Below, in pieces: positions 2,088 through 34,418 of a DNA stretch of 38,402 bases (its first letter is position 1; the number at the start of each line of letters is the position of its first letter). The DNA is from a virus. Position numbers and translations under genes: made by a program. The notes beneath the pieces are model-generated. The model made no database searches. It had not been told where the DNA came from and saw only the letters and a list, made by a program, of their open reading frames with translations. The stretch spans positions 1 through 38,402 of IMG/VR virus record IMGVR_UViG_3300011113_000167, one strand, 5' to 3'.

Positions 2088-2939
2088 TCAAGCAGCGATT
2101 AGCTCTTCCTCTTCCTGGTAGCTCTGGATGAAGCTAGCAGCCTTCTCAGCCAGTGCAGCAGCCTTGAAGATAGCCCTATCGTTGTCACGCAGACACTTCA
2201 GCCAGTGATCTATATATCCGGCGTGGCGTAGGTCACCCTGGATTTGATGGTCGGCGCAGAGCATTGCAGCACCCAGCTCAGCTACCAGCTCTTCGAAAGC
2301 ATACGCAGAGTCGCCGAAACGCTGACCGAAAACCCGGTCTAAACGCTTGTCAGAGCCCGTCCAGTGCACCAGCTCATGAAAGGCTGTGGCGTAGTAATTA
2401 GCCTTGTCAGCGAACGTAGAGAGCTCCGGCATCCTAATCAAATCAGCACTTGGCACAAAGCAAGCCACATCACCACCATGCCGAATGACTGCCCCGGTGT
2501 TGCGAATCGTTGACTCGCAATGCTCCAGCCGTTCCCCTTCTGGCTTAGGCTGTACCGGCTCGAACTGGATGCCGTCCACTTGATCGGCGTTAAACACTAC
2601 AAAGCTCTTCAGCACCGCCACATTCTTGGCGTGCAGCTCACCCTCTCGCATTTCTTCGATAGTCAGCGGCTTATAGAACGTGATATGCGTTCCCTTCTCA
2701 CCCTTGCGAACGTTAGCCCCTGCGGCTTGCCATTGCTTGAACGTAGCCCAGCGATTAGAGCTAAACCGTACGCCACTCATGGCGAGTAGTAGGCGATTGA
2801 TGCCCCGGTAGGGCTTGAGGGTGAATGCGTTGCAGTCAGCACCAGCGGCTGCACCAGCGTTCCAAGGCTTAATCCAGGGTGTAGCACCCTTCTCAAGCTC
2901 AGCAATGATGCGAGCGGTAACGTCAGCGTAGAGTGTCAT
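2088..2939 (-). CDS. ardC: ArdC-like antirestriction protein
   Basis: This 283-aa protein has the two-part layout of the ArdC family: an N-terminal ssDNA-binding domain (about residues 1-120, with TPWIKPWN and YRGINRLLL) and a C-terminal zincin-like metallopeptidase domain with FHELVHWTGSDKRLDR, where HExxH provides zinc ligands and the catalytic Glu. Family members bind ssDNA and protect incoming DNA from host restriction. First position behind a regulated promoter fits expression at entry. I chose the ATG at 2939 (AGGAG nine bases upstream) over the GTG at 2945, which lies only three bases from it. Confidence 0.88.
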   Translation of the reverse strand: MTLYADVTARIIAELEKGATPWIKPWNAGAAAGADCNAFTLKPYRGINRLLLAMSGVRFSSNRWATFKQWQAAGANVRKGEKGTHITFYKPLTIEEMREGELHAKNVAVLKSFVVFNADQVDGIQFEPVQPKPEGERLEHCESTIRNTGAVIRHGGDVACFVPSADLIRMPELSTFADKANYYATAFHELVHWTGSDKRLDRVFGQRFGDSAYAFEELVAELGAAMLCADHQIQGDLRHAGYIDHWLKCLRDNDRAIFKAAALAEKAASFIQSYQEEEELIAA

Positions 2940-2960
2940 GGCCACAGGCTCCTAGTGTTG

Positions 2961-4068: not shown

Positions 4069-5828
4069 ATTTCAATCTGGCCCAGTTTTACAAGTTTTGC
4101 TCTGAACTCAAGATTGAGACTAAAGAGCAGGGCTTACGCAAGATGGATAACTTGCTGGGCACGCAGACGTATGTGATGGACGAGATAGCGCGTGGGCTGG
4201 CGCAGGATGTTCATTTCTTTGTGATCTTGAAGGGTCGTCAGCTGGGGATTACGACGATCTCGTTGGCGCTGGACTTGTACTGGCATTTCACGCACCCTGG
4301 TTTGCAGGGGACGCTCACGACGGATACGGAGGAAAACCGTGACATGTTCCGCAGCACCTTGTCCATGTATATGGACGGTTTGCCTAAGGAGTACAGGATT
4401 CCCGCAGTACAGCACAACCGTAACCAACTTTCGCTCAAGAACAGAAGTCGCCTCTTTTATCAAGTTGCGGGGCTTAGGGCCAAGGGCTCTTTGGGTCGCG
4501 GCAAGGCCATTACGTACTTGCACGGAACAGAAACCAGTTCTTGGGGAGATGAGGAGGGGCTAGCGTCTTTGCTGGCTTCTCTTGCGGAGACAAATCCTGA
4601 CCGGCTGTATTTGTTTGAGTCTACGGCTCGTGGCTTCAACATGTTCCACGACATGTACAAGACGGCCAAGTCAGCTAGGACACAGAGGGCTATCTTCTGC
4701 GGCTGGTGGCGTAACGAGTTCTACAGCGTGGATGCCAAGAGCAAGATTTACCAGGTGTACTGGGATGGCAAGCTCACGGCAGAAGAGAAGGAGTGGGTCA
4801 AGGACATCAAGAAGCTCTACAACGTAGAGATCAACTCCCGGCAGATGGCCTGGTGGCGCTGGAAGATGCACGAGGGCATCAAGGACGAGGCGCTGATGTA
4901 CCAGGAGTTTCCTCCTACCGAGGACTACGCCTTTGTCATGACCGGCACCAGCTTCTTCTCTACCTCGCGGTGTACAGAAGCAGCCAAGGAATCTAAGCGG
5001 CTAACGCCTGACAGCTACCGCTATGCTTTCGGGGCTCTGTTCCAAGACACAGAAGTGCTCAAGAGCACAGAGCGGCTGGGCGTGCTCAGGATATGGGAAG
5101 AGCCCATAGACAACGCCTACTACGTTATCGGGGCTGACCCAGCCTACGGTTCGTCTGACTGGGCTGACAGGTTCTGTATCCAGGTCTACCGCTGCTACGC
5201 AGATGGACTAGACCAAGTGGCTGAGTTTGCAACCTCTGAGCTCAACACCTACCAGTTTGCGTGGGTCATCTCCCACCTGGCTGGTGCCTACAAGAACTCC
5301 ACGCTTAATCTGGAAGTCAACGGGCCTGGGCAGGCGGTCATCAACGAAATCAGAAATCTCAAGAGAATGGCCGTGAGCATGAACAACGCCACAGGCCGTG
5401 GGCTGATGGATGTGCTCGGGAGCATGACCAACTACATCTGGCGTCGCAATGACACGCTCGGCGGCCTGTCCAACTCTATAGGCTATCTGACCACGCACTC
5501 CAGCAAGGAGCGCATGCTCAACTACATGAAGGATTACTTTGAGCGCGGGATGATGACCATTCGCAGCATGGATACGCTGGAGGAGATGAAGAGCATCGTG
5601 CGCGAGAACGGCACCATCCATGCTCCAGGCCGTGCCAAGGATGACCGTGTGATCGCCTCTGCGCTGGCTGCTGTTGCCTACGCAGAGCAGGTGCAGCCCC
5701 GGCTCATTGCCGCACGTATCACGCGCAATGTCTCAGAAGCCCAAGAGCAGATGACGCCTGGTGAGGCACAGGTGGGGCGCAACGTGGCTGACTATCTCAA
5801 GAAAATCGGCATCTATGGCAGCGCATGA
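4065..5828 (+). CDS. terL: Terminase large subunit
   Basis: This 587-aa packaging motor has an N-terminal ATPase and a C-terminal RNase H-like nuclease. Visible motifs are a Walker A-like KGRQLGIT (56-63), the FESTARG segment (184-190) typical of the ATPase coupling region, GADPA with D358 starting the nuclease domain, E417 in LNLEVNG, and KDDRVIASALA (525-535) giving the last catalytic Asp. It pumps DNA into the prohead through the portal (8025-9698) and cuts the concatemer. The start overlaps the previous stop by four bases and the end overlaps the glycosyltransferase gene by 14. Confidence 0.95.
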   Translation: MNFNLAQFYKFCSELKIETKEQGLRKMDNLLGTQTYVMDEIARGLAQDVHFFVILKGRQLGITTISLALDLYWHFTHPGLQGTLTTDTEENRDMFRSTLSMYMDGLPKEYRIPAVQHNRNQLSLKNRSRLFYQVAGLRAKGSLGRGKAITYLHGTETSSWGDEEGLASLLASLAETNPDRLYLFESTARGFNMFHDMYKTAKSARTQRAIFCGWWRNEFYSVDAKSKIYQVYWDGKLTAEEKEWVKDIKKLYNVEINSRQMAWWRWKMHEGIKDEALMYQEFPPTEDYAFVMTGTSFFSTSRCTEAAKESKRLTPDSYRYAFGALFQDTEVLKSTERLGVLRIWEEPIDNAYYVIGADPAYGSSDWADRFCIQVYRCYADGLDQVAEFATSELNTYQFAWVISHLAGAYKNSTLNLEVNGPGQAVINEIRNLKRMAVSMNNATGRGLMDVLGSMTNYIWRRNDTLGGLSNSIGYLTTHSSKERMLNYMKDYFERGMMTIRSMDTLEEMKSIVRENGTIHAPGRAKDDRVIASALAAVAYAEQVQPRLIAARITRNVSEAQEQMTPGEAQVGRNVADYLKKIGIYGSA

Positions 5829-6615
5829 CAACCTGACCATCGTGGCCATCTATGGCCACAACGATGGCACAAGCGCCATTCCTGCCATGCTCAAGAGCCT
5901 AGAAGAACTACCCGGCTCACAAGGGCTGCTGATCTCCCCTAGACGCCCTAAAGACCTTCCCAAGCACATCCGGCACAAGTCCTGCCACAAGATGAGCTAC
6001 CAGCAGTACTCGCTGTTTGTCATGTACTGCCTGCACCACTACATCAAGACCTCGCACTGCCTGATCGTGCAGGACGACGGCTGGGTGCTCAACGGCAAGA
6101 ACTTCAAACCCGAGTACTACGACTACGACTACATAGGCGCACCAGCCCACGCAGGCTACAAAGACAACAACCTGTACTTCTCGTTTAACTGGCTGCATGT
6201 GCCAGAAGCTGTGCCGGTGCTCAACGGCGGGTTCTCGCTGCGCTCAAAACGCTTCCTGCGCTGCTTGGGCAGGCGCGGCCTCATGTACGCCTTCTTCACA
6301 GCCCAGCCCATGTGCAACGAAGATGTGCAGCTGTGCACCTTCATGCGCAAACCACTGGAAAAGCTAGGCATGCGCTTTGCCCCCGTTAAGGTAGCCTTGA
6401 ACTTCAGTCTGGAGTACGCTGGCCCAGGACTACACGACAAGCTCAAATTCAACAAGCTGCTGGGTCACCACGGCCCAACCCGCAAGCTGCTGCCTAACAA
6501 TCACATACAAATCACCAAGCCTCTATCAGAAGTGAGTAATTACTATCGTGAGATAGAGTTTCTGGACTGGCTGCAAGACAATGGATACACGGTAGAGTTT
6601 CATGAGCCATCCTAG
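5815..6615 (+). CDS. DUF5672-type glycosyltransferase
   Basis: This 266-aa protein has the hallmarks of the DUF5672 glycosyltransferase-like family: QDDGW (86-90) as the acidic metal/sugar-nucleotide motif, YDYIGAP (104-110) and NGGFSLRSK (137-145). I start at the ATG at 5815, which overlaps the terminase by 14 bp; upstream in-frame codons are within the terminase gene. The next gene is a methyltransferase overlapping by 14 bp. The pair may modify a sugar on the virion, on DNA or on the host surface. The substrate is unknown. Confidence 0.85.
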   Translation: MAAHDNLTIVAIYGHNDGTSAIPAMLKSLEELPGSQGLLISPRRPKDLPKHIRHKSCHKMSYQQYSLFVMYCLHHYIKTSHCLIVQDDGWVLNGKNFKPEYYDYDYIGAPAHAGYKDNNLYFSFNWLHVPEAVPVLNGGFSLRSKRFLRCLGRRGLMYAFFTAQPMCNEDVQLCTFMRKPLEKLGMRFAPVKVALNFSLEYAGPGLHDKLKFNKLLGHHGPTRKLLPNNHIQITKPLSEVSNYYREIEFLDWLQDNGYTVEFHEPS

Positions 6616-14111: not shown

Positions 14112-16361
14112 ATGGCAGCGGCTGAACAGAAGAAGTCCTACGCTGTCATCAAGAATTTCCTTGGTATCAACACCAAGGCAAACCGCACTGCGATTGATGA
14201 AAAGGAATTTGCCTGGATTGAGAACGCCATGCCCATCGGGTTTGGCAACATTAAGATCATTCCAGCGCAAAAGACGGTGCGAGATAGCGGCAACACAGCC
14301 GTTGTCTTCGCCAACACCACCGTACACCTGACATCTGCCAACATCCTGCTGGACGACTACATCATGTCGTTCGATGACGCAGGCGGTGCCCAGTACTTTG
14401 ACATCACCACAGGCACAAAAGGCAATGTGGCACCTGTCAATACCTTCTCCGGCGATGATGTCAACACCGCTCAGTACAAAAACGAGCTGGTCATCATCGG
14501 TGACCCGGAAAAAGGTCTGTTTACCTGGAATGGCACAAACCTTGTCAGCGGTAATTCTGTTGGTTACATAGGCATCACCAACCCAGGGTCTGGCTATACG
14601 CAGGCTCCGGTGGTCACAATCTCTGCGCCCAACCAGGCCAATGGCGTACAGGCGCTTGCAGAGGCCACGATTACCACGGCTGCAGGTGGCGTGCGTGCAA
14701 TCGTCGTTGACACGCCTGGTACTGGCTACACCACTGTCCCGCTTGTCACGATTTCTGCCCCTGACATTGCTGGAAGCGTCACCGCCAAAGCATCGGCAAC
14801 GATTAGCAGCGGCAATGTGGTGTCCATTACGGTCACGGAAACAGGTAGTGGTTACATCAAAACGCCTACCGTCACCATCACAGGTGGCGGCGGCGCTAGT
14901 GCCAACGCAGTTGCCACCATCAGCACAGGGCAACTTACCAGCATCTTCCTCACAGAAGCAGGTTCTGGCTACACATCGCCACCCACTGTCACCATTGAGG
15001 CTGCGCCAGCCGGTGGAACCAATGCTACTGCTATTGCCCAGCTCACGACATTTAAGAAAGGCACAGTCTCTGTCGTTGTAACCAACGGCGGCAGTGGCTA
15101 CGCCAACGCTGCCAACGTCGTTGTCACTATCGGCAATGCAACTGGCTACACCACCAAGGCTACGGCCACAGCAATTGTCAGCGGCAATACGGTCAACCAA
15201 ATCATCATGACCAATCCTGGGGCCGGGTATACCTCGACCTCTAACGTGGTGGTGACGATTACGGGCGGCGGTGGCAGTAACGCAGCAGCAAAAGCCATTG
15301 TCAACACAGACGATGTGCAGGATGTGGCCACGTTTGGTGGCAGAGTGTGGATAGCTTCTGGAAGAAACCTGTACTACTCGGCTGCAGACAGCGCCACCGA
15401 CTTCACATCTGTCTCCGCAGGCAGCTTGACGCTCACAGACTCAACCCTGCGCGGCAACATCAAGGCTATTGTTTCTGCCAACAACTTCCTGTACATCTTT
15501 GGCGAGACAAGTATCAACATCATTTCTGACTTGCGTGTGACACAAGAGGGCACAACCCTCTTTACCAACACCAACGTCAGCGCCAGTATTGGCACAGGCC
15601 GCACAGACGCTATCTTTCCGTACTTCCGCAGCTTGCTGTTCATGAACGACTACGGCATGTACGCCCTGGTCGGTTCTACCACTAGCAAGTTGTCAGACAC
15701 GCTAGATGGCATCTTCCCAAACATCGACTTCACACAGCCGATAACGGGTGGTCAGGTTTTGATCAACAACATCCTGTGTGCCGCATTTAACTTCACCTAC
15801 AACGACCCCGAGACATCACCACCAACTCCACGGCAGGTGCAGGCCATCTTCTTTGACAAGAAATGGTTTATTGCTAGCCAAGGAGCTATTGACTATGTGG
15901 CCTCGGTTCCGGTTGCAGGAACAATTCGCTTGTATGGCACCGCTGATAAAGACCTGTATCAGCTCTACGGTAACGATAGTGCGCCAATCAACAGCATCAT
16001 CAAGACGGCGCTCATGCCGCTCAATGATCCTATCCGCACCAAACAAGCATTGAAGTTTGGTGTGGAAGCCACGCTGTCGGAAAGCGCAACCTTTGACATC
16101 ACTGTAGACAGTGAAGTGGCATCTAGCCCTGTGTACACGCTGAGCAACAACATCCAGTGGCTCAACAACGCAGGTCAAGTGATTCCCTGGACTAACAACT
16201 CATCTCAAGTTATTGGCTGGCTGCAGTCTTCTGGCTATTTCCTCTACAAGTCAGATGCCCAACAATATGGCAAATACCTGGGCCTCACGCTCACCAGTAG
16301 CGACCCAGGGTTTGTGGTCAACACGTTTGAGATGGAACACGAATTAAGAGTGAGGTTCTGA
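14112..16361 (+). CDS. Tail tube/hub protein with six GSGYT repeats
   Basis: This 749-aa protein starts with KNFLGINTKANRTAIDEKEF and IENAMPIGFGNIKIIPAQK, the usual opening of podovirus tail tubular B-like proteins. Residues about 150-397 are an insertion made of six tandem repeats around [NT]xGxGYxxxPxVTI, spaced 39-45 residues. After it the typical region resumes (VWIASGRNLYYSAADSATDF, FGETSINIISDL). The C-terminus ends EMEHELRVRF. It would form the tail nozzle under the adaptor; the repeats may build a protruding beta-structured domain. Confidence 0.8.
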   Translation: MAAAEQKKSYAVIKNFLGINTKANRTAIDEKEFAWIENAMPIGFGNIKIIPAQKTVRDSGNTAVVFANTTVHLTSANILLDDYIMSFDDAGGAQYFDITTGTKGNVAPVNTFSGDDVNTAQYKNELVIIGDPEKGLFTWNGTNLVSGNSVGYIGITNPGSGYTQAPVVTISAPNQANGVQALAEATITTAAGGVRAIVVDTPGTGYTTVPLVTISAPDIAGSVTAKASATISSGNVVSITVTETGSGYIKTPTVTITGGGGASANAVATISTGQLTSIFLTEAGSGYTSPPTVTIEAAPAGGTNATAIAQLTTFKKGTVSVVVTNGGSGYANAANVVVTIGNATGYTTKATATAIVSGNTVNQIIMTNPGAGYTSTSNVVVTITGGGGSNAAAKAIVNTDDVQDVATFGGRVWIASGRNLYYSAADSATDFTSVSAGSLTLTDSTLRGNIKAIVSANNFLYIFGETSINIISDLRVTQEGTTLFTNTNVSASIGTGRTDAIFPYFRSLLFMNDYGMYALVGSTTSKLSDTLDGIFPNIDFTQPITGGQVLINNILCAAFNFTYNDPETSPPTPRQVQAIFFDKKWFIASQGAIDYVASVPVAGTIRLYGTADKDLYQLYGNDSAPINSIIKTALMPLNDPIRTKQALKFGVEATLSESATFDITVDSEVASSPVYTLSNNIQWLNNAGQVIPWTNNSSQVIGWLQSSGYFLYKSDAQQYGKYLGLTLTSSDPGFVVNTFEMEHELRVRF
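14559..15302 (+). repeat. Six tandem protein repeats (GSGYT type) inside the tail tube gene
   Basis: Repeat cores are at residues 157-170, 202-214, 244-256, 283-295, 326-340 and 368-383. All read roughly PGSGYTxxPxVTI and are followed by a Gly/Ala-rich linker. They are divergent at DNA level, so this is an old amplification. Confidence 0.85.
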
Positions 16362-18800: not shown

Positions 18801-19130
18801 ATGGCAACGACTTTCAACTGGGTCATCACGGCCCTTGACTGCATCCCCCAAACCCCCGAAGGCGCGGACTATGTGGTCACAGCCCACTGGACTTGCAACG
18901 GCACGGACGGAACCTACAACGGCTCCGTCTACAGCACCTGCTCGTTCCCGGTCACCCAAGGCAGTTCATTCGTGCCGTATGCCGATCTGACTCAGGACAC
19001 TGTGCTTGGCTGGTGCTGGGATAACGGCGTAGACAAGGATGCTACTGAAGCTGCCGTACAGCAGCAGATCGACAACCAGATTGACCCCCCGATCATTCAA
19101 CCGCCTCTGCCCTGGAGCCAAAATGGTTAA
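18801..19130 (+). CDS. Small fibre-associated hypothetical protein (109 aa)
   Basis: The protein begins MATTFNWVITALDCIPQTP and carries VVTAHWTCNGTDGTYNGSVY. This type of short protein often follows fibre genes in related phages, and its role is unknown. Trp- and Cys-rich beta-strands suggest a compact domain. It starts two bases after the fibre stop and overlaps the next gene by eight bases. Confidence 0.7.
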   Translation: MATTFNWVITALDCIPQTPEGADYVVTAHWTCNGTDGTYNGSVYSTCSFPVTQGSSFVPYADLTQDTVLGWCWDNGVDKDATEAAVQQQIDNQIDPPIIQPPLPWSQNG

Positions 19131-19469: not shown

Positions 19470-19808
19470 ATGAACTTCGACGACCTATCAAATGTCAAGT
19501 TTGGGGATGTCGATGGCCTTGGCCGTATGCTCTTTGAGAACGGATTGCAGCACCGTTTGTTCTACAACATCTTGGGTGACCAGGGTGTTGCCATTCCAGA
19601 CTATCCGATCATGGAAGCAGAGCCTGCCAATCTTGATGATTGGCTATTTGTGCACAACCAAATGCACCAGGCTATTGCCTCCTTGCTCAACCTGGATAAT
19701 CCGTTTCAGTTGCTGGACGCAGATTGGAATGTGGAAGAAGACTTTTATGACTGGCTTGGCGTCCATGAAAGCATCCACAAACAGATTGCCCAAAGGCTAG
19801 GGGTTTGA
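19470..19808 (+). CDS. Hypothetical acidic helical protein (112 aa)
   Basis: The protein begins MNFDDLSNVKFGDVDGLGRM and includes VHNQMHQAIASLLNLDNPFQ and VHESIHKQIAQRLGV. Two similar HNQMHQ/HESIHKQ segments occur, each near the end of a helix pair, which hints at an internal duplication. It is encoded just before the giant virion protein. I do not recognise a family, but a structural or assembly role fits the context. Confidence 0.65.
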   Translation: MNFDDLSNVKFGDVDGLGRMLFENGLQHRLFYNILGDQGVAIPDYPIMEAEPANLDDWLFVHNQMHQAIASLLNLDNPFQLLDADWNVEEDFYDWLGVHESIHKQIAQRLGV

Positions 19809-19809
19809 C

Positions 19810-22800
19810 ATGGCATTGCAGCAAGAGATGGACGAGCAAGAGCTGCTGAACGTAGTAGCCCAAGATGAGCAACGCTCTAGCGTCATGTCATTGGTGCCTA
19901 CGTTTAGGGCATTTATCTACGAAGGTGGGCGCAATGACGAACAGGCCACCATCCGTGGACTGGCTTATGCCATTTCCAACGGCCTTACGCCGCAGCAAAC
20001 CGTAGACTTGTTCAATGCTGCGCTGGGCACGTCATTTACCGTTGAAAACTACAACGCTGCTGTTAGCTTTTACAACGATCAAATCCAAGCAGAGTTAGCT
20101 GCTCCTGCTGCGGCACCCGCCCCTGCTCCCGCCCCTACTCCTGCACCAGCACCGACCCCGGCTCCTGCTCCAGAGCCTGCACCAGCTCCTGCTCCAACAC
20201 CCGCGCCTGCACCAGTTGATGAAGCTGCAGCCGTTGACACGATTGACCAAGACATCCTAAACCTTGTTGCCGCTGAGCAGCAAGCGCCCACTCCTGCACC
20301 CGCGCCAGCTCCAACGCCTGCTCCGGCTCCAGCGCCAGTTGCTGCTGCGCCTGCACCCGCTGCTGAAGAGACTACGCAGAATGATCCTCTGCGCTTTGAT
20401 GGCGACCTTGGATACATCACCAACAATGCTATTGAGCGCCAGCTAGACGCTATCCGTCAGAAGTATCCAGACGCAGAAATCACGCCCATCTTGCAAGAAG
20501 GTGAGCCCACACGAGAAGGTGATCCGACCTATCTTCCCAGCATCAACTTCATTCAAGTTAGGCAAGCGACAAAGACACCAGGGCTAAACGTAGCGTTTGG
20601 CGTTGATACCAGTGGCAACAAGATTGCAGGCACGGACAAGTTCTTCCGCAACCAATCCTTCTTCCAAAGCCCAGTCTTTGGCATTTTGGTTTCTGCTGTT
20701 CTTCCTGGTCTTGGTGAGTTCTTTGCTGCCCAACTGGCTGCTGCTGGAGTTGTAACAGGACAAGTAGCAACGACGGTAGGTAACGCACTAGCCAAGATTG
20801 CTGTAGATGTAGCAGCAGGTAAAGACTTTGGCGACTCAGTTCGTGATGTTGCGCTGTCTACGGCTATTAGCTCTGGCATGCCTAACCTTGGGCCGTCTAT
20901 TCAGAACTTGGTAGGCGACCCACAACTGGCTCAAGTGCTGCAAAGTGCTGGTAATGCGGCCATTACCACTGCTGCACAGGGTGGTGATGGCTCTGCCATT
21001 CTGCGCTCTGCCATTGCCGCTGGTTCTGGAGCCGCTGTAGGACAGCAAGGTGGTGCAACAGCTGGTGCTGTAACACGCAGTTTGGTAGCCACGGGCGACC
21101 CTGCTGCTGCGTTAACAGCAGGTGTTGGTCAGTTAGCAGGACAAGGCGGTCAGGTTGTTGCTCAAAACATTGCTGACCAAGGTGTATCCAGACTACCTTC
21201 TACAGCCCCGACAACAACGGTAACGACAGGGCCAAATCTGTCTACTAGTGTCGGTGGTTTTGGCGGCACTACGCTAGATACAGAAGCCACGAGATTTAGT
21301 GGCGTTGGCGATATGCGCGGTGGTTTTGATCCCAACAGCCAAGAAGCGTTGATTGCTCAAGGCATGTTGCCGCAAGGTGTGCGAATCCAAACATTCAATC
21401 AGCTAGAAGCTGTGCGAGTGTTGTCGCAAGCCAATCCTGCGCTGTTGGCAAGCATGAGCCAAGGCGATCTTAACGAAGCCGCTGGCTACATCCTTAACAA
21501 CCAAGAAGAACAACTTGCTCAAAAGGCTGTTACTACACCGGCAGGCCAAGGGCTTGGTTTGGTGCCACGAGCTGCCAACATTTTTACAGTTGAAACCATT
21601 CCAGAAGATCAATTGCCTTCATTTATAGAAGATCAAGGCGCTGTTTATTCTCTGATTGGTAACCGTGCTTTCCGCATTGCCTCACAAGACGAAGTTTCTA
21701 GAGGTGACGCCACCATTCTTTACGATGATAAAGGCCGCGCTTACTATGGTGTTGAAGTCTTTGGATTTACTACGCCTGGTAAAAAGTTGACCGCTGAAGA
21801 ACAAAAAGACGTTCTACAGCAACAATACACGACAGAGGCTTCACAGCAAATAGACCCTGAGACTGGTCAGCCCATGCTGTTGACTGCTGGTACTGGCGGC
21901 AACATTGGCGCAGCAAACATAGTTGGAGGCACTGCTGCGGCTGTTGCCAAGGGTGTTGGCGAACAACTTGGTTATCTTGGCACCTTGACTGGTAGCCAAA
22001 AGCTGCAAGATGTAGCCGCCAATCTCACAAGCTATGGCACAGGCGCAACTTCCGCAAATGTGCGTCTAGGCCAGCAAGACATCATCAACGCCATTGCTAA
22101 CGCAGATGGCGTGTTAGGCAAAGCTGTAGCTACTATTACCGCTTCTGCTCGCAATCCTGCTGCGCTGCTGGACTGGGGAATCTCAGAAGGCGTGCAAGAA
22201 ATTGCTCCGTTGCTCACCGGTGTTGGGGTGGGCCGTGCTGTAACTGCCGCAGCAAAACTAGCACTTGGCGAGCGTATTGCTAGCAAATATGGTGTGGCTG
22301 CAGCCGTTGGCACTAACGCAGCCACAGACGCCGGTGAGTCTGCTATTGCAACCTATCAGCAGGTCAAAGAAAGCCTGATAAACCGTGGGTTTAGTGAAGA
22401 ACGCGCCTCTCAGATTGCAATGCCTGCAGCTCTGGCTAGCGGTTTTATCACGCTAGTAACGTCTGCTGTCGGTGAGTCTGAGCTTGTTGCTGCTGCTACC
22501 CGTGGTGTTCCTGGCAGGGTTGGCCGCTCTATCGTTCGTGAAACGCCGTCTGAGTTTGCAGAAGGGTTTGGTCAGGGTGTGGTTGAAGCTGTTGCCATCA
22601 CCAACAGACTGCCGACTATTGACCAAGCATTGACTCAAGGTTTTGTGGAAGCCCTGGTAGGAGGCACAACTACAGGCGGCATCACTGCTGGGCAGTCTGT
22701 GCTTGCTGGTACAGGCGCAGGAACTGGGACAACCGCACTGCCTGGTGTTGGAGCTGCGGCTACCACTACGCCTGCGGTTGTTGTCACATCTAATCCCACA

Positions 22801-24507
22801 ACTGCGGTGGTGATCGACAGCACGGGCAACACTTTAACCGTCAGCAACAACACTGGCACGACCCTCACACCTGGTTCGTCCGTTAGTCTGGATACCGTAA
22901 ACAACACGGTAGTTTCTCCGACCACGGCTGCTGCAACCACAACAACCACCGGCACAGAAGCCACCACAACACCCAGCACTGCGCCAACAACTGCACCAAC
23001 GACTGCTGCAACTACAGCCACAACGGCTGCAACAGAAACAGCGTCACAGAAAGCATTGCGCGATGCTGCTGCTGCGCAGGGCGTCACACTGCCTACTGAT
23101 TGGTTTGGGTTGTCCGGCGAGGCTAAAGCTACTTGGCTGTCCAACAACAATGTTTCTGCTGAAACCATCACTGCTCTAGCAGGCGCAGATGGGTTGGCCG
23201 CACTGCAAGCTGTTGGCTATGTAGACAAAACCAAAGCAGCACCAGCCACGACCAACAACACCGCCGTTGTCATCAGCTCTGACACCAACAACACGTTAGT
23301 GATAACTAACAATGGCACCGTTACGCTGGTTAACAACGGTACAGGCAACACGTTAAACACGGGTGCGGTTGTTAACCTAGACGCCACCAACAACACAATT
23401 ACGAACAACACAGGCACCGTCAACACCAATGTTGCCAACACAGGCGCTGACGCCAACAACACGCCGCCTACAGCAGCCACGGCCAATAACATCAATAACA
23501 CCGTTACTAACTTAGCCACATCCCAGTTGGTAACGCCCAATGATGTCAACTCTGGCGCTGCAGCCACGGCAGTGGTTAACGTGGTGGCGCAGACAGATGC
23601 CACATCTCAAACGGCTGTAAACGTAACCCAGGACGTTGTAAACCAAGTAGCTGGCACTGCGCCCACAACCGCAGCGGCAGATACCGTCACTGCAACTGCT
23701 CCGACCACGACTCCCGGCACATCTACGGCTGTGGTGGTAGCCGTTGACCCGGATACCAACAACGTGTTGGTTATGGATAGCGCGGGTGCTGTGCAGGTGG
23801 CCACAGCCTCTCCTGGCACCGCGCCTGGTGCGACGGTAGATATTGCTGTTGATCCCACCACGGGAGCGGCAACGGTGGTGACGGCACAACCCGCTACGCA
23901 GCCAGAGACTGCTACACAACCTGAGACTGCTACGCAGCCGGAAACGACTACGCAGCCGGAAACTGCTCCTGCTACTGCGCCGGTTACACAAGCCCAGCCG
24001 GAAGTTGAGCCCGAGGTTACGCCGACAGCTCAGCCGGAGACACAGCCTGAGCCAGAAAGTCAGCTAGAAACTCAGCCAGAAACCCAGCCTGACACCACAA
24101 CTCAGCCAGAAACAACGCCCACAATCAATATCACACCCAACGAAGAAGCGTTGATTGGTGAAATTTTGCGGCTAATTTCTCGTGAGCAAGGGCCGATGAT
24201 TGGCGGTGTGGAAGGTATTCCAGAGTTTGGTGTGACTCCTAGCGGTGTGCCGGAAGATGAGGCGGCAGCTCGTCGGGCTACTGAGCGCAGGCAGCAAACT
24301 GGATCACCTCGTGGTGGCGCAGCTATTACGCCTTTGTTCTCTCCGCAACAGCGCGGTACTGTGGCTAGAACTTTGGGTTCTACTGCTCTGCAGGAATCAT
24401 TGACAGCATTTAGACCAGCGGGTGAAATCCGTGCTGGTACTGGTAAGCCTCGTAAAAATGTGTGGAACGAGGCTTCTTTGCGGCTAAAAGACGCACTAGG
24501 ACTGTGA
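19810..24507 (+). CDS. Giant low-complexity virion protein (1565 aa)
   Basis: The first 95 residues are a folded helical domain. Then come Pro-Ala repeats (about 97-136 and 157-187), a hydrophobic stretch near 288-335 (VFGILVSAVLPGLGEFFAAQ), Ala/Gly-rich helical regions with possible membrane-active segments, and from about 990 on Thr/Asn/Gln-rich repeats. Three copies of a beta module (TAVVIDSTGNTLTV type) and a QPETxT repeat tract lie near the C-terminus, which ends in a short charged helix. Size, position and the hydrophobic parts suggest an internal virion protein ejected with the DNA, but this is inference. Confidence 0.75.
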   Translation: MALQQEMDEQELLNVVAQDEQRSSVMSLVPTFRAFIYEGGRNDEQATIRGLAYAISNGLTPQQTVDLFNAALGTSFTVENYNAAVSFYNDQIQAELAAPAAAPAPAPAPTPAPAPTPAPAPEPAPAPAPTPAPAPVDEAAAVDTIDQDILNLVAAEQQAPTPAPAPAPTPAPAPAPVAAAPAPAAEETTQNDPLRFDGDLGYITNNAIERQLDAIRQKYPDAEITPILQEGEPTREGDPTYLPSINFIQVRQATKTPGLNVAFGVDTSGNKIAGTDKFFRNQSFFQSPVFGILVSAVLPGLGEFFAAQLAAAGVVTGQVATTVGNALAKIAVDVAAGKDFGDSVRDVALSTAISSGMPNLGPSIQNLVGDPQLAQVLQSAGNAAITTAAQGGDGSAILRSAIAAGSGAAVGQQGGATAGAVTRSLVATGDPAAALTAGVGQLAGQGGQVVAQNIADQGVSRLPSTAPTTTVTTGPNLSTSVGGFGGTTLDTEATRFSGVGDMRGGFDPNSQEALIAQGMLPQGVRIQTFNQLEAVRVLSQANPALLASMSQGDLNEAAGYILNNQEEQLAQKAVTTPAGQGLGLVPRAANIFTVETIPEDQLPSFIEDQGAVYSLIGNRAFRIASQDEVSRGDATILYDDKGRAYYGVEVFGFTTPGKKLTAEEQKDVLQQQYTTEASQQIDPETGQPMLLTAGTGGNIGAANIVGGTAAAVAKGVGEQLGYLGTLTGSQKLQDVAANLTSYGTGATSANVRLGQQDIINAIANADGVLGKAVATITASARNPAALLDWGISEGVQEIAPLLTGVGVGRAVTAAAKLALGERIASKYGVAAAVGTNAATDAGESAIATYQQVKESLINRGFSEERASQIAMPAALASGFITLVTSAVGESELVAAATRGVPGRVGRSIVRETPSEFAEGFGQGVVEAVAITNRLPTIDQALTQGFVEALVGGTTTGGITAGQSVLAGTGAGTGTTALPGVGAAATTTPAVVVTSNPTTAVVIDSTGNTLTVSNNTGTTLTPGSSVSLDTVNNTVVSPTTAAATTTTTGTEATTTPSTAPTTAPTTAATTATTAATETASQKALRDAAAAQGVTLPTDWFGLSGEAKATWLSNNNVSAETITALAGADGLAALQAVGYVDKTKAAPATTNNTAVVISSDTNNTLVITNNGTVTLVNNGTGNTLNTGAVVNLDATNNTITNNTGTVNTNVANTGADANNTPPTAATANNINNTVTNLATSQLVTPNDVNSGAAATAVVNVVAQTDATSQTAVNVTQDVVNQVAGTAPTTAAADTVTATAPTTTPGTSTAVVVAVDPDTNNVLVMDSAGAVQVATASPGTAPGATVDIAVDPTTGAATVVTAQPATQPETATQPETATQPETTTQPETAPATAPVTQAQPEVEPEVTPTAQPETQPEPESQLETQPETQPDTTTQPETTPTINITPNEEALIGEILRLISREQGPMIGGVEGIPEFGVTPSGVPEDEAAARRATERRQQTGSPRGGAAITPLFSPQQRGTVARTLGSTALQESLTAFRPAGEIRAGTGKPRKNVWNEASLRLKDALGL
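20098..20370 (+). repeat. Pro-Ala repeat tracts in the giant virion gene
   Basis: Two tracts of alternating PAPAPTPA-type codons (about 20098-20216 and 20280-20370) separated by an acidic linker with DTIDQDILNLVAAEQ. They would form stiff extended linkers. The DNA is also repetitive (gctcctgc-type) and prone to slippage or misassembly. Confidence 0.8.
22797..23880 (+). repeat. Three copies of a beta-rich module in the giant virion gene
   Basis: Copies around 22797-22920, 23254-23415 and 23721-23880 each read TAVV-x2-D-x-NTL-x-V, then a GT pair, a PG or TG turn and a D-x-NT strand. They are separated by Thr-rich or helical linkers. Divergence between copies is high, so they are recognised only at protein level. 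Confidence 0.65.
23886..24120 (+). repeat. QPET repeat tract in the giant virion gene
   Basis: A run of QPETxT/QPE-x2 units with acidic and Thr-rich spacing. Several near-identical 15-18 base units (cagccggaaactgct type) occur, which makes copy number changes likely. The encoded segment is probably disordered. Confidence 0.8.
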
Positions 24508-24508
24508 A

Positions 24509-25459
24509 ATGGCATCGTTTATCAAAAACATGACCCAGGTTGGTGGCGGTTCCCGCCAGATTGCACGTTTGTTGCAGGCAAAAGCGCCTCCCAACCACAT
24601 CCTGGCCTATATCACGCCAGAAGAAGCCAACTTGCTAGAGGCGCGTGGCGGCAGCGGAAGGGAAGACCCCAACACGGGTATTCCTACTTTCCAGGTGGAA
24701 GAGCCACCTATGGATATGTTTACCCCGCCAGCAGACACGGTTGCTCCTATTGAGGACACCGGAGCGTTTGACTTTGGTGCAGGTGCAGAAACTTACAGCC
24801 CATTTGTGGACTACGGGTTTGGCACGCTGAATCAACCACTGCAGCCGCCGCCTGTGCTTAACGAGCTGGGCCAGCCTGCATTGCTAGAGACTCCGCAGCC
24901 TTTGCGTGCAGAAACAGGTTTGCGTGAGCCTACGGCGGCTGATCGTGCAGCAGCGCCAGCAGCAGCAGGAGGTGATGACTTCCTCAAGCGCCTAGCGTTG
25001 GCAGGCGTGACGGGTTTGTTTGGTGCTCGTCAGGCTCGTGCAGCACAGCGCACAGCCGGTGCAGCAGCAGAAGAACAGCGTGCACTAGGACGCCCATACC
25101 AGGAGCAAGGGCGCCAGTTGCAGGCAGCAGCTCAACGTGGTGAGTTGAGCCCAGTAGCCCAGCAGTCTATGCAGGCACTGCGTGCTCGACTGGCGCAGGG
25201 TGCTCAGGCCCGTGGTGGCGTGGGTGCAGCCCAGGCTATGCAGCAGGCTGAGAACTTCCGTCAACAGTTGTTGCAACAGCAGTTTGATTTTGGCTTGAAG
25301 CTGGCTCAGATTGGTGATCAGTACGCTGCTGGCGCTATCAAGACTGGATTGCAGGCTGACCAATACGTCAACAGCCTAACCAATTCTTTCTTTAGCAACA
25401 TTGCGCGTACTTTGTTCTCGCAACCTGCACAGCAACCGCAACCGCCTGGAGGCCGCTAA
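24509..25459 (+). CDS. Internal virion-like protein (316 aa)
   Basis: The N-terminal part includes IARLLQAKAPPNHILAYITP, followed by a Pro-rich acidic middle and a long Ala/Gln-rich helical C-terminal half (RQLQAAAQRGELSPVAQQSM, AMQQAENFRQQLLQQQFDFG). It ends in a Pro/Gln tail. The stop and the next start share one base (TAATG). The helical C-terminal half resembles podovirus internal (ejection) proteins. Confidence 0.7.
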   Translation: MASFIKNMTQVGGGSRQIARLLQAKAPPNHILAYITPEEANLLEARGGSGREDPNTGIPTFQVEEPPMDMFTPPADTVAPIEDTGAFDFGAGAETYSPFVDYGFGTLNQPLQPPPVLNELGQPALLETPQPLRAETGLREPTAADRAAAPAAAGGDDFLKRLALAGVTGLFGARQARAAQRTAGAAAEEQRALGRPYQEQGRQLQAAAQRGELSPVAQQSMQALRARLAQGAQARGGVGAAQAMQQAENFRQQLLQQQFDFGLKLAQIGDQYAAGAIKTGLQADQYVNSLTNSFFSNIARTLFSQPAQQPQPPGGR

Positions 25460-27114
25460 TGGCTGAAGAACTCGCCAAGATTGATACCGAGGTCAAGGTC
25501 ACTGAGCCTAAGCCACAGGCGGGTGGGCGCTTGTCGTTTTCCGACATCATGGGTGTGCGCCAACCTTTTACGCAAAAGAAGGGCGAACTGCGTGAAGAAA
25601 TAAAAGGCACGGAAGGCGAGATTCTTGCTGGTCAGCAGGCCCAAAAGGAAATTGGCGCTGAAGGCAAGATGGCTGTTGAGCAACAAACTGCTGCAGAAGT
25701 AGGTGGCGCTCAGCAACGCTTTCAGCAAAAGATGCAGGCAGAGCCGCTACCGGCTTTTGTCCCGAGCCAAGACAACTTCAAAGACATTGCTGGTCTGTTC
25801 TCGTTGATCGGCGTGGTGGGCATGGTGGCTGGCAAGAGCAGTGGGCTTGCGGCCATGAATGCCATGAACGGCATGTTGGAAGGCTACCGTGCAGGACGCA
25901 ACGACCTGTACAAGCGTGAGCGTGACGTCTTTGACAAGAACTTCAAGACGATGCTGCAAAAGCACGCTGAGTTCCGAAAAGAGATGGATGACGCTATTAA
26001 GTTAGCGCAGACTAACAGGCAGGCAGGATTGCAGGCGGCAGAGCTTGCTGCTGTCAGGGCCGGGTCTGAAATTGTGAAAGCACAAGTTAGACGTGGTGAC
26101 CTTCTCGGTGCTTATGAAACTGTGAAGGACGCAGAAACTGGAGCAGTCAAAGCCCTAGAGATGGTCAACGCAAACGTCAATGCAGAAATTGCTGCTCGTG
26201 AGAGAGCAAAACAGGCAGCTCAAGCATTGGCTCAACGCAATGTTCAGTTGGTGCAAACGCCAGAAGGTCTGCGTACTATTGATGTAGGCACGGTGCCACG
26301 TGCAACTCCAGAAGAAATGGCAAAGGCAACGCCATTCAAAGGTGGTGGACAGCAAGCAAGAGCTGGTCAAAACGCATTGATCTTTGCATCTCGCGTGTAT
26401 GGCAACATTGAAAACGCTGCCCAAGATTTGCAAAATATCATGACGCTGCCAGGTGTTGCTCAGTCTCCTGTGTTAGCCGGGATTATTGGCACAGACCCAG
26501 GAACTGCCATCAGAAGCATGGGCGCATTGGTTGCTCGGTCAATTACCACTCCAGAGCAAAAAGCCTTTGAACAGATTACCAACAGCCTAGACGCAGCATT
26601 GTCACGTCTTGAGGCGCAAGGTCTTGCTTCTGGCGCTACCAAGTCTAGTATTCAGAGCTTTAACGCACTCAAGCCTCGTGCCGGTGACAAAGCTATCAAC
26701 ATGGCGTTGTACATAGCCAGAGTTAAACAGGAGATTGAGACTGGCATTCGTGTGCATGACAAGATGCCTGGCACTACAGACGAGCAACGCACGGCAACCA
26801 AAGAGATTCTCAACAATCTAGATAAGGTTGTGCCATATGACGTAACGGATGTGCTTTCCGTTCTTGGTCGTGGTCGATCAACGATTGACGACAAGATGCA
26901 AAAGTTGCTGCAGGTGCCACCTGTTGCTCGTGGATACGACGCCACCGTAACTGGACAAACGCAACCAGCAGCCGCACCTGCCGCTACACAAGCTCCAACT
27001 GGACAGGTTGACATTACGCAAGAGCGTCAACGTGCTCAACAAGCCATTGCCAATGGCAAGGATGAGGAGCAGGTTCGCAAGCGGTTCAAAGAAAGAACTG
27101 GCCAGGAGCTGTAA
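25459..27114 (+). CDS. Internal virion-like protein (551 aa)
   Basis: Mostly helical. The first 90 residues are charged and Gln-rich. A short Gly/Ala hydrophobic segment (LFSLIGVVGMVAGKSSGLAA) lies near 112-131 and could be membrane-active. Extended coiled-coil and Ala-rich helices follow (RERDVFDKNFKTMLQKHAEF, AAELAAVRAGSEIVKAQVRR). The C-terminus has a helix TQERQRAQQAIANGKDEEQV. It lies between two similar helical proteins, all with one-base TAATG junctions, and could be one of three ejection proteins. Confidence 0.7.
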   Translation: MAEELAKIDTEVKVTEPKPQAGGRLSFSDIMGVRQPFTQKKGELREEIKGTEGEILAGQQAQKEIGAEGKMAVEQQTAAEVGGAQQRFQQKMQAEPLPAFVPSQDNFKDIAGLFSLIGVVGMVAGKSSGLAAMNAMNGMLEGYRAGRNDLYKRERDVFDKNFKTMLQKHAEFRKEMDDAIKLAQTNRQAGLQAAELAAVRAGSEIVKAQVRRGDLLGAYETVKDAETGAVKALEMVNANVNAEIAARERAKQAAQALAQRNVQLVQTPEGLRTIDVGTVPRATPEEMAKATPFKGGGQQARAGQNALIFASRVYGNIENAAQDLQNIMTLPGVAQSPVLAGIIGTDPGTAIRSMGALVARSITTPEQKAFEQITNSLDAALSRLEAQGLASGATKSSIQSFNALKPRAGDKAINMALYIARVKQEIETGIRVHDKMPGTTDEQRTATKEILNNLDKVVPYDVTDVLSVLGRGRSTIDDKMQKLLQVPPVARGYDATVTGQTQPAAAPAATQAPTGQVDITQERQRAQQAIANGKDEEQVRKRFKERTGQEL

Positions 27115-29108
27115 TGAACGGATACGAAGACCTGCCTGACAAGGCAAAAGACGCTGATCCGTACGGCGACATTCCACAAGGGAAAGGTGGCGCTGCGTTT
27201 GGCATTTATCCCAAGCAGCGTGCTACGCCTTCCAAGCCAGAAACCAAGCAAGCCATGAGCCGGTTTGCCGAGACAACTGGCGAGCTTCTTGGCTTGGGAA
27301 CAACAAAAGAGCCTGAGTTTGCTCCTGGTCAGATTGCAACGGCAGGTGGTGTTGGTGCCGTTGGTGGAGCTGTTGCGCCCCAGGTGTTGCGTACTACTGG
27401 CGGTGTTCTTAGCCGTATCCCAACTATTCCTACCAGAGCTGCTGGCGCTGGATTGACTGCACTTGGCACAGGATTGCAGCAAACCTCCGCTGCTCGTCGT
27501 GCTGCTTTAGGTGGTGGTGGTTTTGCTGGTGCCGAGACTGGTGGACAAGTTGCCGCACTAAGCGGTTTGCCGCCTATTCTTGGCGCAGGCCCAGGTGCGG
27601 CACTTGGTATGGGTCAGGTTCCTGGCCGTCAGTTAGTGAGCACTTTGCGTGGGCGACCCGTACAAGAAGCACAAGCAGCAGTTGGAACAGAGGCTGAAGC
27701 AGCTCGACGTGCTGGTGCGCAAGCCCTTACGGCAGAGGAGCGTGCTGCCCAACAAACGGCAGCAACTCAACGGCAGACTTTGGAATCGCAAGGTTTGGCT
27801 CAAACAGAGCGTCAAGCCCAAGCTACCCGTACCGCTGAGAGAGAAGAGGCTAGAAAAGGCAAATCTCTCAGAGAGTTGGCTGGTGTACGCACGCTTCCAG
27901 AGGCCGGTGGGTTTAAGCCTATTCCGCAAACCGAGACACAGGTTGGTGAGTACATCCGTGGCCAAGCCAAGAACTTTGTAGACGGCATAAAGACGCAGCG
28001 TGCTCGTGCAGCAGATGCCAACTTTACCGGGGCAAAGACAGAAGCAGCTCAGAAAGAGGCGCTAGGCCAGTTTGTTGATACTCGCCCCATCATTGACTAT
28101 CTCAATGGCTTGCAAGCCAAGGGCGGCTCTGGCGACTACATCAACAGCATTCGCCGATTGGTGGAAGACATTGGTGGAACCAGAGGTTTTGAGGGCCTGG
28201 AGATCATTCGTCGCCGGGTTGGTGATGCGGCGTTTGGTCTGCCGGAAGAGGGCTATAAGGCCATTGGTCAGCAGCTTGCCAAGGATGTGTATGGGCAGTT
28301 GGCAAACCAAATGCGCCAGTTCTCTGGCAGTTTTGGCAAATACCTAGACGACTACAAGCGGCTGTCTCAGCCTATTGAAGTCTATGGCACGAGAGTTGGC
28401 AAGGGCCTGATCGAGACTCAAGACGCTGCAGGGCGCTACTTTAGTAAGACGGCAGATCAGATTGCCAACGATGTGTTCAAGAGCCCAGAAAGCACCAAGC
28501 AGTTTCTAGATGCTGTTGGCGGCAACCAAGAGATTGTCACGGCTGCTGCTCGTCGCTACTTTGCAGGAAAGCTAGAAGGCGTGGCAAAGCCAGAGGCTGT
28601 GGATAAGTTGCTCAAGGACAACCGGGAGTTGTTGCGGTTGCCTGGTATGCAGCCGGTTCGTCAGGATATTGAGTCGTTCAAAGCCAATCTTGTCACGTCC
28701 GAGCGCCGTGCTGGTGCGGCTCGTGGCATTGCAGAAGAGGCTAAAGGGCAACTTGCTGGCCCGATCAGCGAGGGTATGGCTCAGGCTGACAAGGCTCTTG
28801 CCGCAAGACTTAAAGACATTCAGTCTGCCAAGACGTTGTTCTCTGATTCTGTTGACGCACTGGTGGCAGCAAAACCTGGACGAGCTGTGCAGGACTTTGA
28901 CAGGACTGTGTTGCCAAAGATCAGAGATGCCGAAGTAAAGGCAGGCGTTACGATCATTGACGAAAACAAACTTCAAGAACTGCGCCAACAGTTGACGCAA
29001 CTTGATCGTGTGGCTGACAAGGTGCAGCGCACAAGACTCGTTGTCGGAGCACTGGGAACGTACCTGGTTGGTCAGACAGCGGTGAGTACGGCAGGCAGGG
29101 TGTTTTGA
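27114..29108 (+). CDS. Internal virion-like protein (664 aa)
   Basis: A 664-aa protein with a short acidic N-terminus, a long Gly/Ala/Thr hydrophobic segment (IATAGGVGAVGGAVAPQVLR and onwards, residues about 73-165) that may insert in membranes, then a long charged helical region (EREEARKGKSLRELAGVRTL, RRLVEDIGGTRGFEGLEIIR). The C-terminus again becomes hydrophobic (LVVGALGTYLVGQTAVSTAG). Together with the previous two genes it forms the probable DNA-ejection set. Confidence 0.7.
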   Translation: MNGYEDLPDKAKDADPYGDIPQGKGGAAFGIYPKQRATPSKPETKQAMSRFAETTGELLGLGTTKEPEFAPGQIATAGGVGAVGGAVAPQVLRTTGGVLSRIPTIPTRAAGAGLTALGTGLQQTSAARRAALGGGGFAGAETGGQVAALSGLPPILGAGPGAALGMGQVPGRQLVSTLRGRPVQEAQAAVGTEAEAARRAGAQALTAEERAAQQTAATQRQTLESQGLAQTERQAQATRTAEREEARKGKSLRELAGVRTLPEAGGFKPIPQTETQVGEYIRGQAKNFVDGIKTQRARAADANFTGAKTEAAQKEALGQFVDTRPIIDYLNGLQAKGGSGDYINSIRRLVEDIGGTRGFEGLEIIRRRVGDAAFGLPEEGYKAIGQQLAKDVYGQLANQMRQFSGSFGKYLDDYKRLSQPIEVYGTRVGKGLIETQDAAGRYFSKTADQIANDVFKSPESTKQFLDAVGGNQEIVTAAARRYFAGKLEGVAKPEAVDKLLKDNRELLRLPGMQPVRQDIESFKANLVTSERRAGAARGIAEEAKGQLAGPISEGMAQADKALAARLKDIQSAKTLFSDSVDALVAAKPGRAVQDFDRTVLPKIRDAEVKAGVTIIDENKLQELRQQLTQLDRVADKVQRTRLVVGALGTYLVGQTAVSTAGRVF

Positions 29109-33647: not shown

Positions 33648-34418
33648 TTAGGGTGCAGGGATAAGCCCACCTTCAAAGAGGTAGGTGCCGAAATGACCGA
33701 GTTGCACCCAGGGTGCTGCCCAGACATCCATCTTGGCTTCACGAGCCAATTTACAAAACGCATAGTCTTCTGACAGAAGACGCTGCGATTCCTTCTCTAT
33801 AAATACGGGGAAGTATTCATAAATCAAGTCTTGAGGCTTGATAACACCACCGAGGTCACCGACATCACTGCGGTAGGTGTTGACCTTCTTCTTGAGCTTT
33901 TCAAAGACTTCGCGCTTGATAAGCATGAAGCCGGTGCCCCCGTTCCAGATACGCAGTGGCTTGTCTACGGGGACGGTGACGGCTCCTTGGTGATCTACGA
34001 GGTTGACCACGAGAGAGCCGGTGTAGCGGGTGAGTTCGTGAGCTGGCACGCCTTGCTTGACAGCCCAGTCCACACCTGCCCAGTTAATTTCCTTCTTGGG
34101 GTAGATGCCGCAGATGATGTCCTTGTCTGCTTTGACCAGGCTGATGACATCCTGCGGGTTAAACCGGATGTCTGCGTCTATAAACATCAGGTGGGTGCAT
34201 TCCTTCTTTTGCATGAAGCCGTGCACCAGTGCGTTGCGAGCACGCTGGATAAGGCTTTCGTTGAACATGAAGGAGAAGGAGACATCCATCTCTGCGGCGC
34301 GGCACAGTGTGCCCATCTGCAGCATGGACTGGGTGTAGAACCCTGTGCACATCCCACCGTACATGGGTGTAGCCACGAAGATGTGCGGCTTTGGTTTAGG
34401 CTTTTTTGCTCTTGGCAT
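33648..34418 (-). CDS. Glycosyltransferase, GT-A type
   Basis: A 256-aa protein with ATPMYGGMCTGF near the N-terminus (nucleotide-binding strand), FIDADIRF (79-86) as the DxD metal-binding motif, and GGTGFMLIKREVFEKL in the acceptor part. This is the GT-A layout of phage-encoded sugar transferases. AAAGGA lies before the ATG. It is transcribed opposite to the DUF5672 protein (5815-6615). The substrate is unknown; DNA base or surface glycosylation are options. Confidence 0.8.
   Translation of the reverse strand: MPRAKKPKPKPHIFVATPMYGGMCTGFYTQSMLQMGTLCRAAEMDVSFSFMFNESLIQRARNALVHGFMQKKECTHLMFIDADIRFNPQDVISLVKADKDIICGIYPKKEINWAGVDWAVKQGVPAHELTRYTGSLVVNLVDHQGAVTVPVDKPLRIWNGGTGFMLIKREVFEKLKKKVNTYRSDVGDLGGVIKPQDLIYEYFPVFIEKESQRLLSEDYAFCKLAREAKMDVWAAPWVQLGHFGTYLFEGGLIPAP

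Follow-up and report, generated by a model that had tools for sequence, protein, structure and literature searches.

Gene and module map of the locus

The window (the whole stretch of DNA analysed, 38,402 bases of a virus record) encodes a terminase large subunit, an SU10-type portal and a phrog_9953 capsid protein, and further an S74 tail fibre and a phage lysozyme. A complete giant gene occupies 19810..24507 (+), with a reading frame uninterrupted through 1565 codons. The 1565-aa protein lacks both Cys and His and is strongly acidic (net charge about -70). The Pro-Ala, Thr, Asn-Thr and QPET tracts listed for it in the first-pass annotation were all present, together with a hydrophobic module (H1), a 456-aa domain designated M and three beta modules of ~50 aa.

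The set of close relatives consisted of seven contigs with proteins of 1213-1573 aa. Residues 1-97 (19810..20100; this and all following modules, + strand) were unmatched in the seven and are followed by a Pro-Ala tether (residues 98-187; 20101..20370). The lead-in to H1 (residues 188-285; 20371..20664) was 38-43% identical in 4/7 close relatives, and H1, which is hydrophobic and Ala/Gly-rich (residues 286-460; 20665..21189), was 59-68% identical in four and 26% in three. The M domain (residues 507-962; 21328..22695) was 69-75% identical, in close relatives only. Beta module 1 (residues 989-1038; 22774..22923), found by profile, precedes a Thr-rich linker (residues 1043-1075; 22936..23034) and a module common to L016 alone among the close relatives (residues 1076-1142; 23035..23235; 64%). 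Beta module 2 (residues 1151-1201; 23260..23412), predicted to be a small five-stranded barrel, is followed by a module present in 7/7 close relatives (residues 1215-1290; 23452..23679; 52-55%), and beta module 3 (residues 1306-1358; 23725..23883) by a QPET tether (residues 1363-1440; 23896..24129). The C-terminal tag (residues 1520-1565; 24367..24504) closes with GEIRAGTGKPRKNVWNEASLRLKDALGL. Identity to close relatives was 36-54% for the beta modules and 84-93% for the tag.

An Asn/Thr-rich tract spans residues about 1140-1230, and tandem-repeat DNA occurs at 20102-20214, 22978-23034, 23893-23967 and 24029-24113. At the QPET site relatives carried other repeats (TGTTTGT or TPETTPTTT, thus Thr/Gly or Thr/Pro/Glu), so that the position of the tether is kept and its sequence is not.

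Module order was identical in the seven independent contigs. M, H1, the beta modules and the C-terminus were conserved and the N-terminus and linkers changed, which bears out the earlier view of the protein as a mosaic, with linkers between its folded parts. In M, pN was far below pS among close relatives (0.18-0.21 vs 0.66-0.76); by this comparison of sequences, M is under purifying selection and 19810-24507 is a genuine coding sequence. A low-complexity ORF or assembly chimera with no functional product is extremely improbable: the tandem repeats and low complexity allow assembly error within the tracts, but the shared module order, the identity of M and its low pN refute this explanation for the entire gene, leaving aside only how long the repeats in those tracts exactly are.

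Properties of the modules

Three copies of a TAVVxxxxxNTLxV module had been described from the sequence. Three copies are real, but only the first fits this pattern exactly (TAVVIDSTGNTLTV); modules 2 and 3 are looser (TAVVISSDTNNTLVI and TAVVVAVDPDTNNVLVM), and a fourth TAVV, at residue 1253, sits in a different module. Per-domain E-values of the three copies ranged from 6e-12 to 7e-15 with a profile that was itself built including the window copies. Copies also occurred in L016 and L019 (three each), in five other close relatives (two) and in distant members (one). When the profile was built from eight distant phages alone, copy 3 scored 35 bits (best of 2000 shuffles, 10.3) and copies 1 and 2 scored 7.6 and 2.5 bits, inside the shuffle range, so that modules 1 and 2 rest on close relatives.

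AlphaFold2 with 27 copies of the beta module predicted a five-stranded barrel (mean pLDDT 88.8); structure prediction of the module had been proposed as a check. Its best PDB matches in Foldseek were OB domains of PAN/Rpt (E 0.008-0.02; TM about 0.8 over the module), and the sequence profile also placed the proteasomal-ATPase OB domain first, non-significantly (E 0.07). At these E-values the OB likeness is a resemblance of fold only; the model supports a small OB-like barrel and has no bearing on function. The PAN/Rpt OB domain is likewise a five-stranded barrel, and the window protein differs from those ATPases in having no ATPase and no coiled coil. A BFVD search with the module returned generic small barrels only.

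The hydrophobic segments of the 1565-aa protein lie at residues 288-307, inside H1, and 869-887. For M, the AlphaFold model was discarded (mean pLDDT 49, too low for fold assignment), PDB sequences gave no match, and matches to the giant PHROGs 14770 and 9880 were set aside as weak (E 0.2-1). M was colinear with the middle of the 1314-aa relative L303 across 142 columns, with non-significant similarity. L303, L304 and L309 form a second lineage, with tagged proteins of about 1300 aa, tethers and no significant M match, and may represent an independent enlargement.

Neither the whole 1565-aa protein nor its pieces had a significant PHROGs or Pfam match, and no catalytic domain was above threshold in these searches; a clear match to a known enzyme, named in the first-pass annotation as an outcome contrary to its reading, was thus not obtained there. 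No SLT or lysozyme domain was found when a peptidoglycan hydrolase of the gp16 type was looked for. A tblastn search of the protein against 50,697 phage records gave no match, and searches of GenBank phages with the whole protein, the M domain and the tag found nothing.

A family with a common C-terminal tag

The most informative feature, missed in the first-pass annotation, was the near-invariant C-terminal tag, [x]WNxxSL[R/K], in the window GKPRKNVWNEASLRLKDALGL. Nine relatives emerged from an initial IMG/VR scan. Every one occupied the same locus, and the complete ones measured 517-882 aa; they differed at the N-terminus and shared a nearly invariant C-terminus. The C-terminal alignment and looser DNA pattern scans then gave 112 full-length sequences (242-1573 aa; some contigs twice). 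Nearly all family members end in the tag; sizes range from 238 to 1573 aa and the front ends are very different. Tag conservation in the pattern scans is partly search selection, because the pattern searched for was itself a piece of the tag; residues outside that pattern (KDALG, GAGEIE, R) were conserved too.

In a reverse test, an alignment of the 316-aa protein encoded downstream was the starting point and led to 80 loci, about half of whose contigs were already known via the tag. Scored as xW[NG]xx[ST][LI][RK] among the 40 C-terminal residues of the upstream ORF, the tag was found upstream of the 316-aa gene in 77/80 loci and in 0/1101 other ORFs of the same loci (>=100 aa). Two of the three tag-negative loci were cut or without a usable upstream ORF, and one had a degenerate form. 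The last codons (TTA/CTA GGA) do resemble a ribosome site, and the tag was considered as a by-product of that of the next gene; such an overlap fails to explain it, because within the tag the codons for R, L, E and S are free to vary. Variation of codons at fixed residues indicates that the tag is selected as protein.

The second most widespread feature was H1, with a profile matching 97/112 members and 0/224 decoys. The shortest relatives (242-281 aa) consist of barely more than H1-like sequence plus tag. Membrane helices were predicted in 75/112 members vs 62/112 shuffled sequences, hardly over shuffles. RTX and dockerin models matched single members, and none of the PHROGs tail fibre families matched in a 60-member sample. 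Two members matched phrog_342 (T7 gp16 type); the match traced, that of L122 (21 bits, a gapped Ala-rich stretch), was taken as compositional and set aside. Searches for the tag in bacterial genomes and among the cultured phages of the collection gave no match.

The 1565-aa protein is an unusually long member of a large family from uncultured short-tailed phages. The tagged family as such is apparently large and undescribed and belongs to uncultured podophages, and it escaped annotation because its strongly conserved residues number only about 20. The new point is the existence of a hidden family, in which the C-terminal tag is fixed and the front end free to change, rather than of a lone mosaic protein. 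The earlier statement that the protein is not a standard podovirus protein holds for known families, but within its own uncultured clade the gene constantly neighbours that for 316 aa. Seen in a single phage the gene looks odd, yet it is a constant component across a large group of uncultured podophages.

Gene neighbourhood

The giant gene is followed by a coupled gene for 316 aa (24509..25459, +), whose homologue was present in 119/119 loci by an iterative profile run in a small set, and by genes for 551 aa (25459..27114, +) and 664 aa (27114..29108, +), the products of which both lack Cys and Trp. Cassette order is thus tagged protein, 316, 551 and 664 aa. In the window and in relatives the tagged gene lies 3' of the adaptor, a tail-hub-like protein and the tail fibre, and 5' of the lysozyme; the fibre gene precedes the giant gene by a few small genes, and the fibre of the window also lacks Cys. 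Identity to relatives decreased from the MCP (89-93%) to the tail hub (51-68%) and the 316-aa gene (36-57%); outside the close group the tagged gene was alignable over only 2-25%.

The 749-aa tail-hub-like protein (14112-16361; 672-749 aa in relatives) carries GSGYTxxPTVTI-type repeats at about residues 150-400, which match cyanophage virion proteins. The small gene 3' of the tail fibre (18801-19130) matched DUF7936 (E 2.5e-28) and phrog_7802 and was found in most relatives checked, and the 112-aa gene immediately 5' of the giant (19470-19808) was 58-90% identical in 9/9 relatives and had no family match. Elsewhere in the window, 2088-2945 (-) encodes an anti-restriction type protein with ArdC N-terminal and MPTase-PolyVal domains, 5761-6615 (+), 3' of the terminase, encodes a DUF5672 protein, and 33648-34418 (-), in the early region, had a weak Anp1 (glycosyltransferase) match.

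Interpretation of the tagged protein

Ejection genes of podoviruses form a small operon of gp14-, gp15- and gp16-like genes with growing sizes (PMC8954989), and genes for internal virion proteins sit on the right-hand side of the core and are the most divergent (PMC10386132). The window gene likewise lies in a compact late structural cassette, a block that probably assists the passage of phage DNA into the host. By order and size, the 316-, 551- and 664-aa genes look like the usual triple (T7 gp14-15-16, P22 gp7-20-16). Because its position, the growing ORF sizes and the divergence gradient fit ejection genes, the tagged protein was read as a fourth cassette protein. On balance it is somewhat probable that it is a virion protein of a podovirus ejection (pilot) cassette, additional to the products of the three genes. 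The tag upstream of the 316-aa gene in 77/80 loci, H1 in 97/112 members and the lack of Cys, as in T7 gp15/gp16 and P22 gp7/20/16, also speak for this reading.

We infer virion location, docking, membrane insertion and ejection of the tagged protein as follows. Docking by the tag would take place at a single conserved position of the virion or its internal core, with a partner that may be encoded in the same block or may be the portal or the tail hub. At infection the protein would exit together with the other cassette proteins, and H1 would insert into, or line, a host membrane. H1 plus tag would be the basic unit, complete within the 242-281 aa of the shortest relatives. In the window lineage this unit would have grown by the addition of M, the beta barrels and two other modules; all of these would be lineage-specific insertions, and flexible, disordered tethers would join the modules and give reach. 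The added modules would probably bind envelope or DNA.

Several observations count against the ejection reading: no sequence similarity to T7 or P22 ejection proteins was found, the helix count was hardly above shuffles and the protein is strongly acidic. The RTX and dockerin matches of single members, to modules that are commoner on cell surfaces, fit an appendage better, and the Cys-free trait is shared by the fibre of the window. In the main rival explanation, possible if rather unlikely, the protein is an external tail- or head-associated appendage for which the tag is the virion anchor, the variable N-terminal parts pointing outward and binding cell surface or polysaccharide, as a tail fibre with reversed polarity. 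Proteins that contact the host usually combine a conserved end with a hypervariable, modular one; the long Pro/Thr tethers also fit, as does the nearness of the fibre gene. However, the signature of tail fibres and tailspikes (conserved N-terminal anchor, variable C-terminus) was reversed in polarity, and the S74 chaperone domain was found in the neighbouring 811-aa fibre, not in the 1565-aa protein. The shortest members are almost only Ala/Gly hydrophobic module plus tag, with no adhesin-like part, and the wide occurrence of H1, the operon coupling to the 316/551/664 cassette and the lack of tail fibre matches (0 of the 60-member sample) also argue against an appendage. The first-pass annotation had left the choice between an ejected protein with an extended tether and a tail-associated fibre; ejection is the better supported of the two, by gene position and anatomy. 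Its observation was thus confirmed and its interpretation partly supported.

A non-virion protein, acting as an assembly chaperone for the 316-aa protein or as a membrane protein of the infected cell that binds it via the tag, is quite unlikely. The invariable coupling to one neighbour and the presence of H1 agree with such a role, but 1565 aa with long tethers would make an expensive chaperone, the range of 238-1573 aa is unsuited to a simple one, and the gene lies late within the structural block.

Should the tag be a virion dock, as the ejection reading proposes, it would offer a simple means of finding ejection proteins where phages lack annotation, and would allow a test of how new functions are added to the DNA-delivery machine of podophages. 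The extension that the C-terminal peptide is a general virion-loading tag, with anything fused ahead of it travelling in the particle to be delivered upon infection, is unlikely; if true, it would be a natural cargo-delivery system with exchangeable cargo of 238 to 1573 aa and unrelated modules.

Comparison with known systems

For T7 gp14/15/16 and P22 gp7/20/16, homology searches gave no HMMER match and no hhalign probability above 20%. T7 gp14/gp15/gp16 share with the window cassette a late position among structural genes, adjacent genes that increase in size, mosaic evolution, a hydrophobic member and few or no Cys (gp15 and gp16 are Cys-free). The tagged protein differs from them in having no transglycosylase domain, a far wider size range and a universal C-terminal tag, and the window cassette in having a fourth gene at its head. 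In P22, gp7/gp20/gp16 are encoded by three tandem genes (229/471/609 aa) comparable to the 316/551/664 order, all Cys-free, and gp7 resembles the window family in its Gly/Ala-rich hydrophobic end; unlike in the window, no tagged giant stands in front.

Stenotrophomonas phage BUCT555 has a distantly related capsid protein (29%) and an ejection block (an SLT protein and a 434-aa DNA ejection protein) that is similarly placed, adjoining a fibre gene. Unlike the window, this block contains no tagged protein, and the window cassette profiles did not match it. Related capsid genes (86-88%) occurred in contigs of two MAGs labelled uncultured beta proteobacterium, which hints at a betaproteobacterial host, a link that MAG binning error could account for.

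The Manatee Spring phages MW202825 and MW202753 have capsid proteins 89% identical to that of the window and carry this cassette and tag at the corresponding position, their tagged proteins being of 616 and 276 aa, respectively, vs 1565 aa in the window. The homologue in MW202753.1 (L012; 17057-17884) is unannotated, and that in MW202825.1 (L011; 17817-19667) is labelled 'ribonuclease E', a label that probably stems from compositional similarity.
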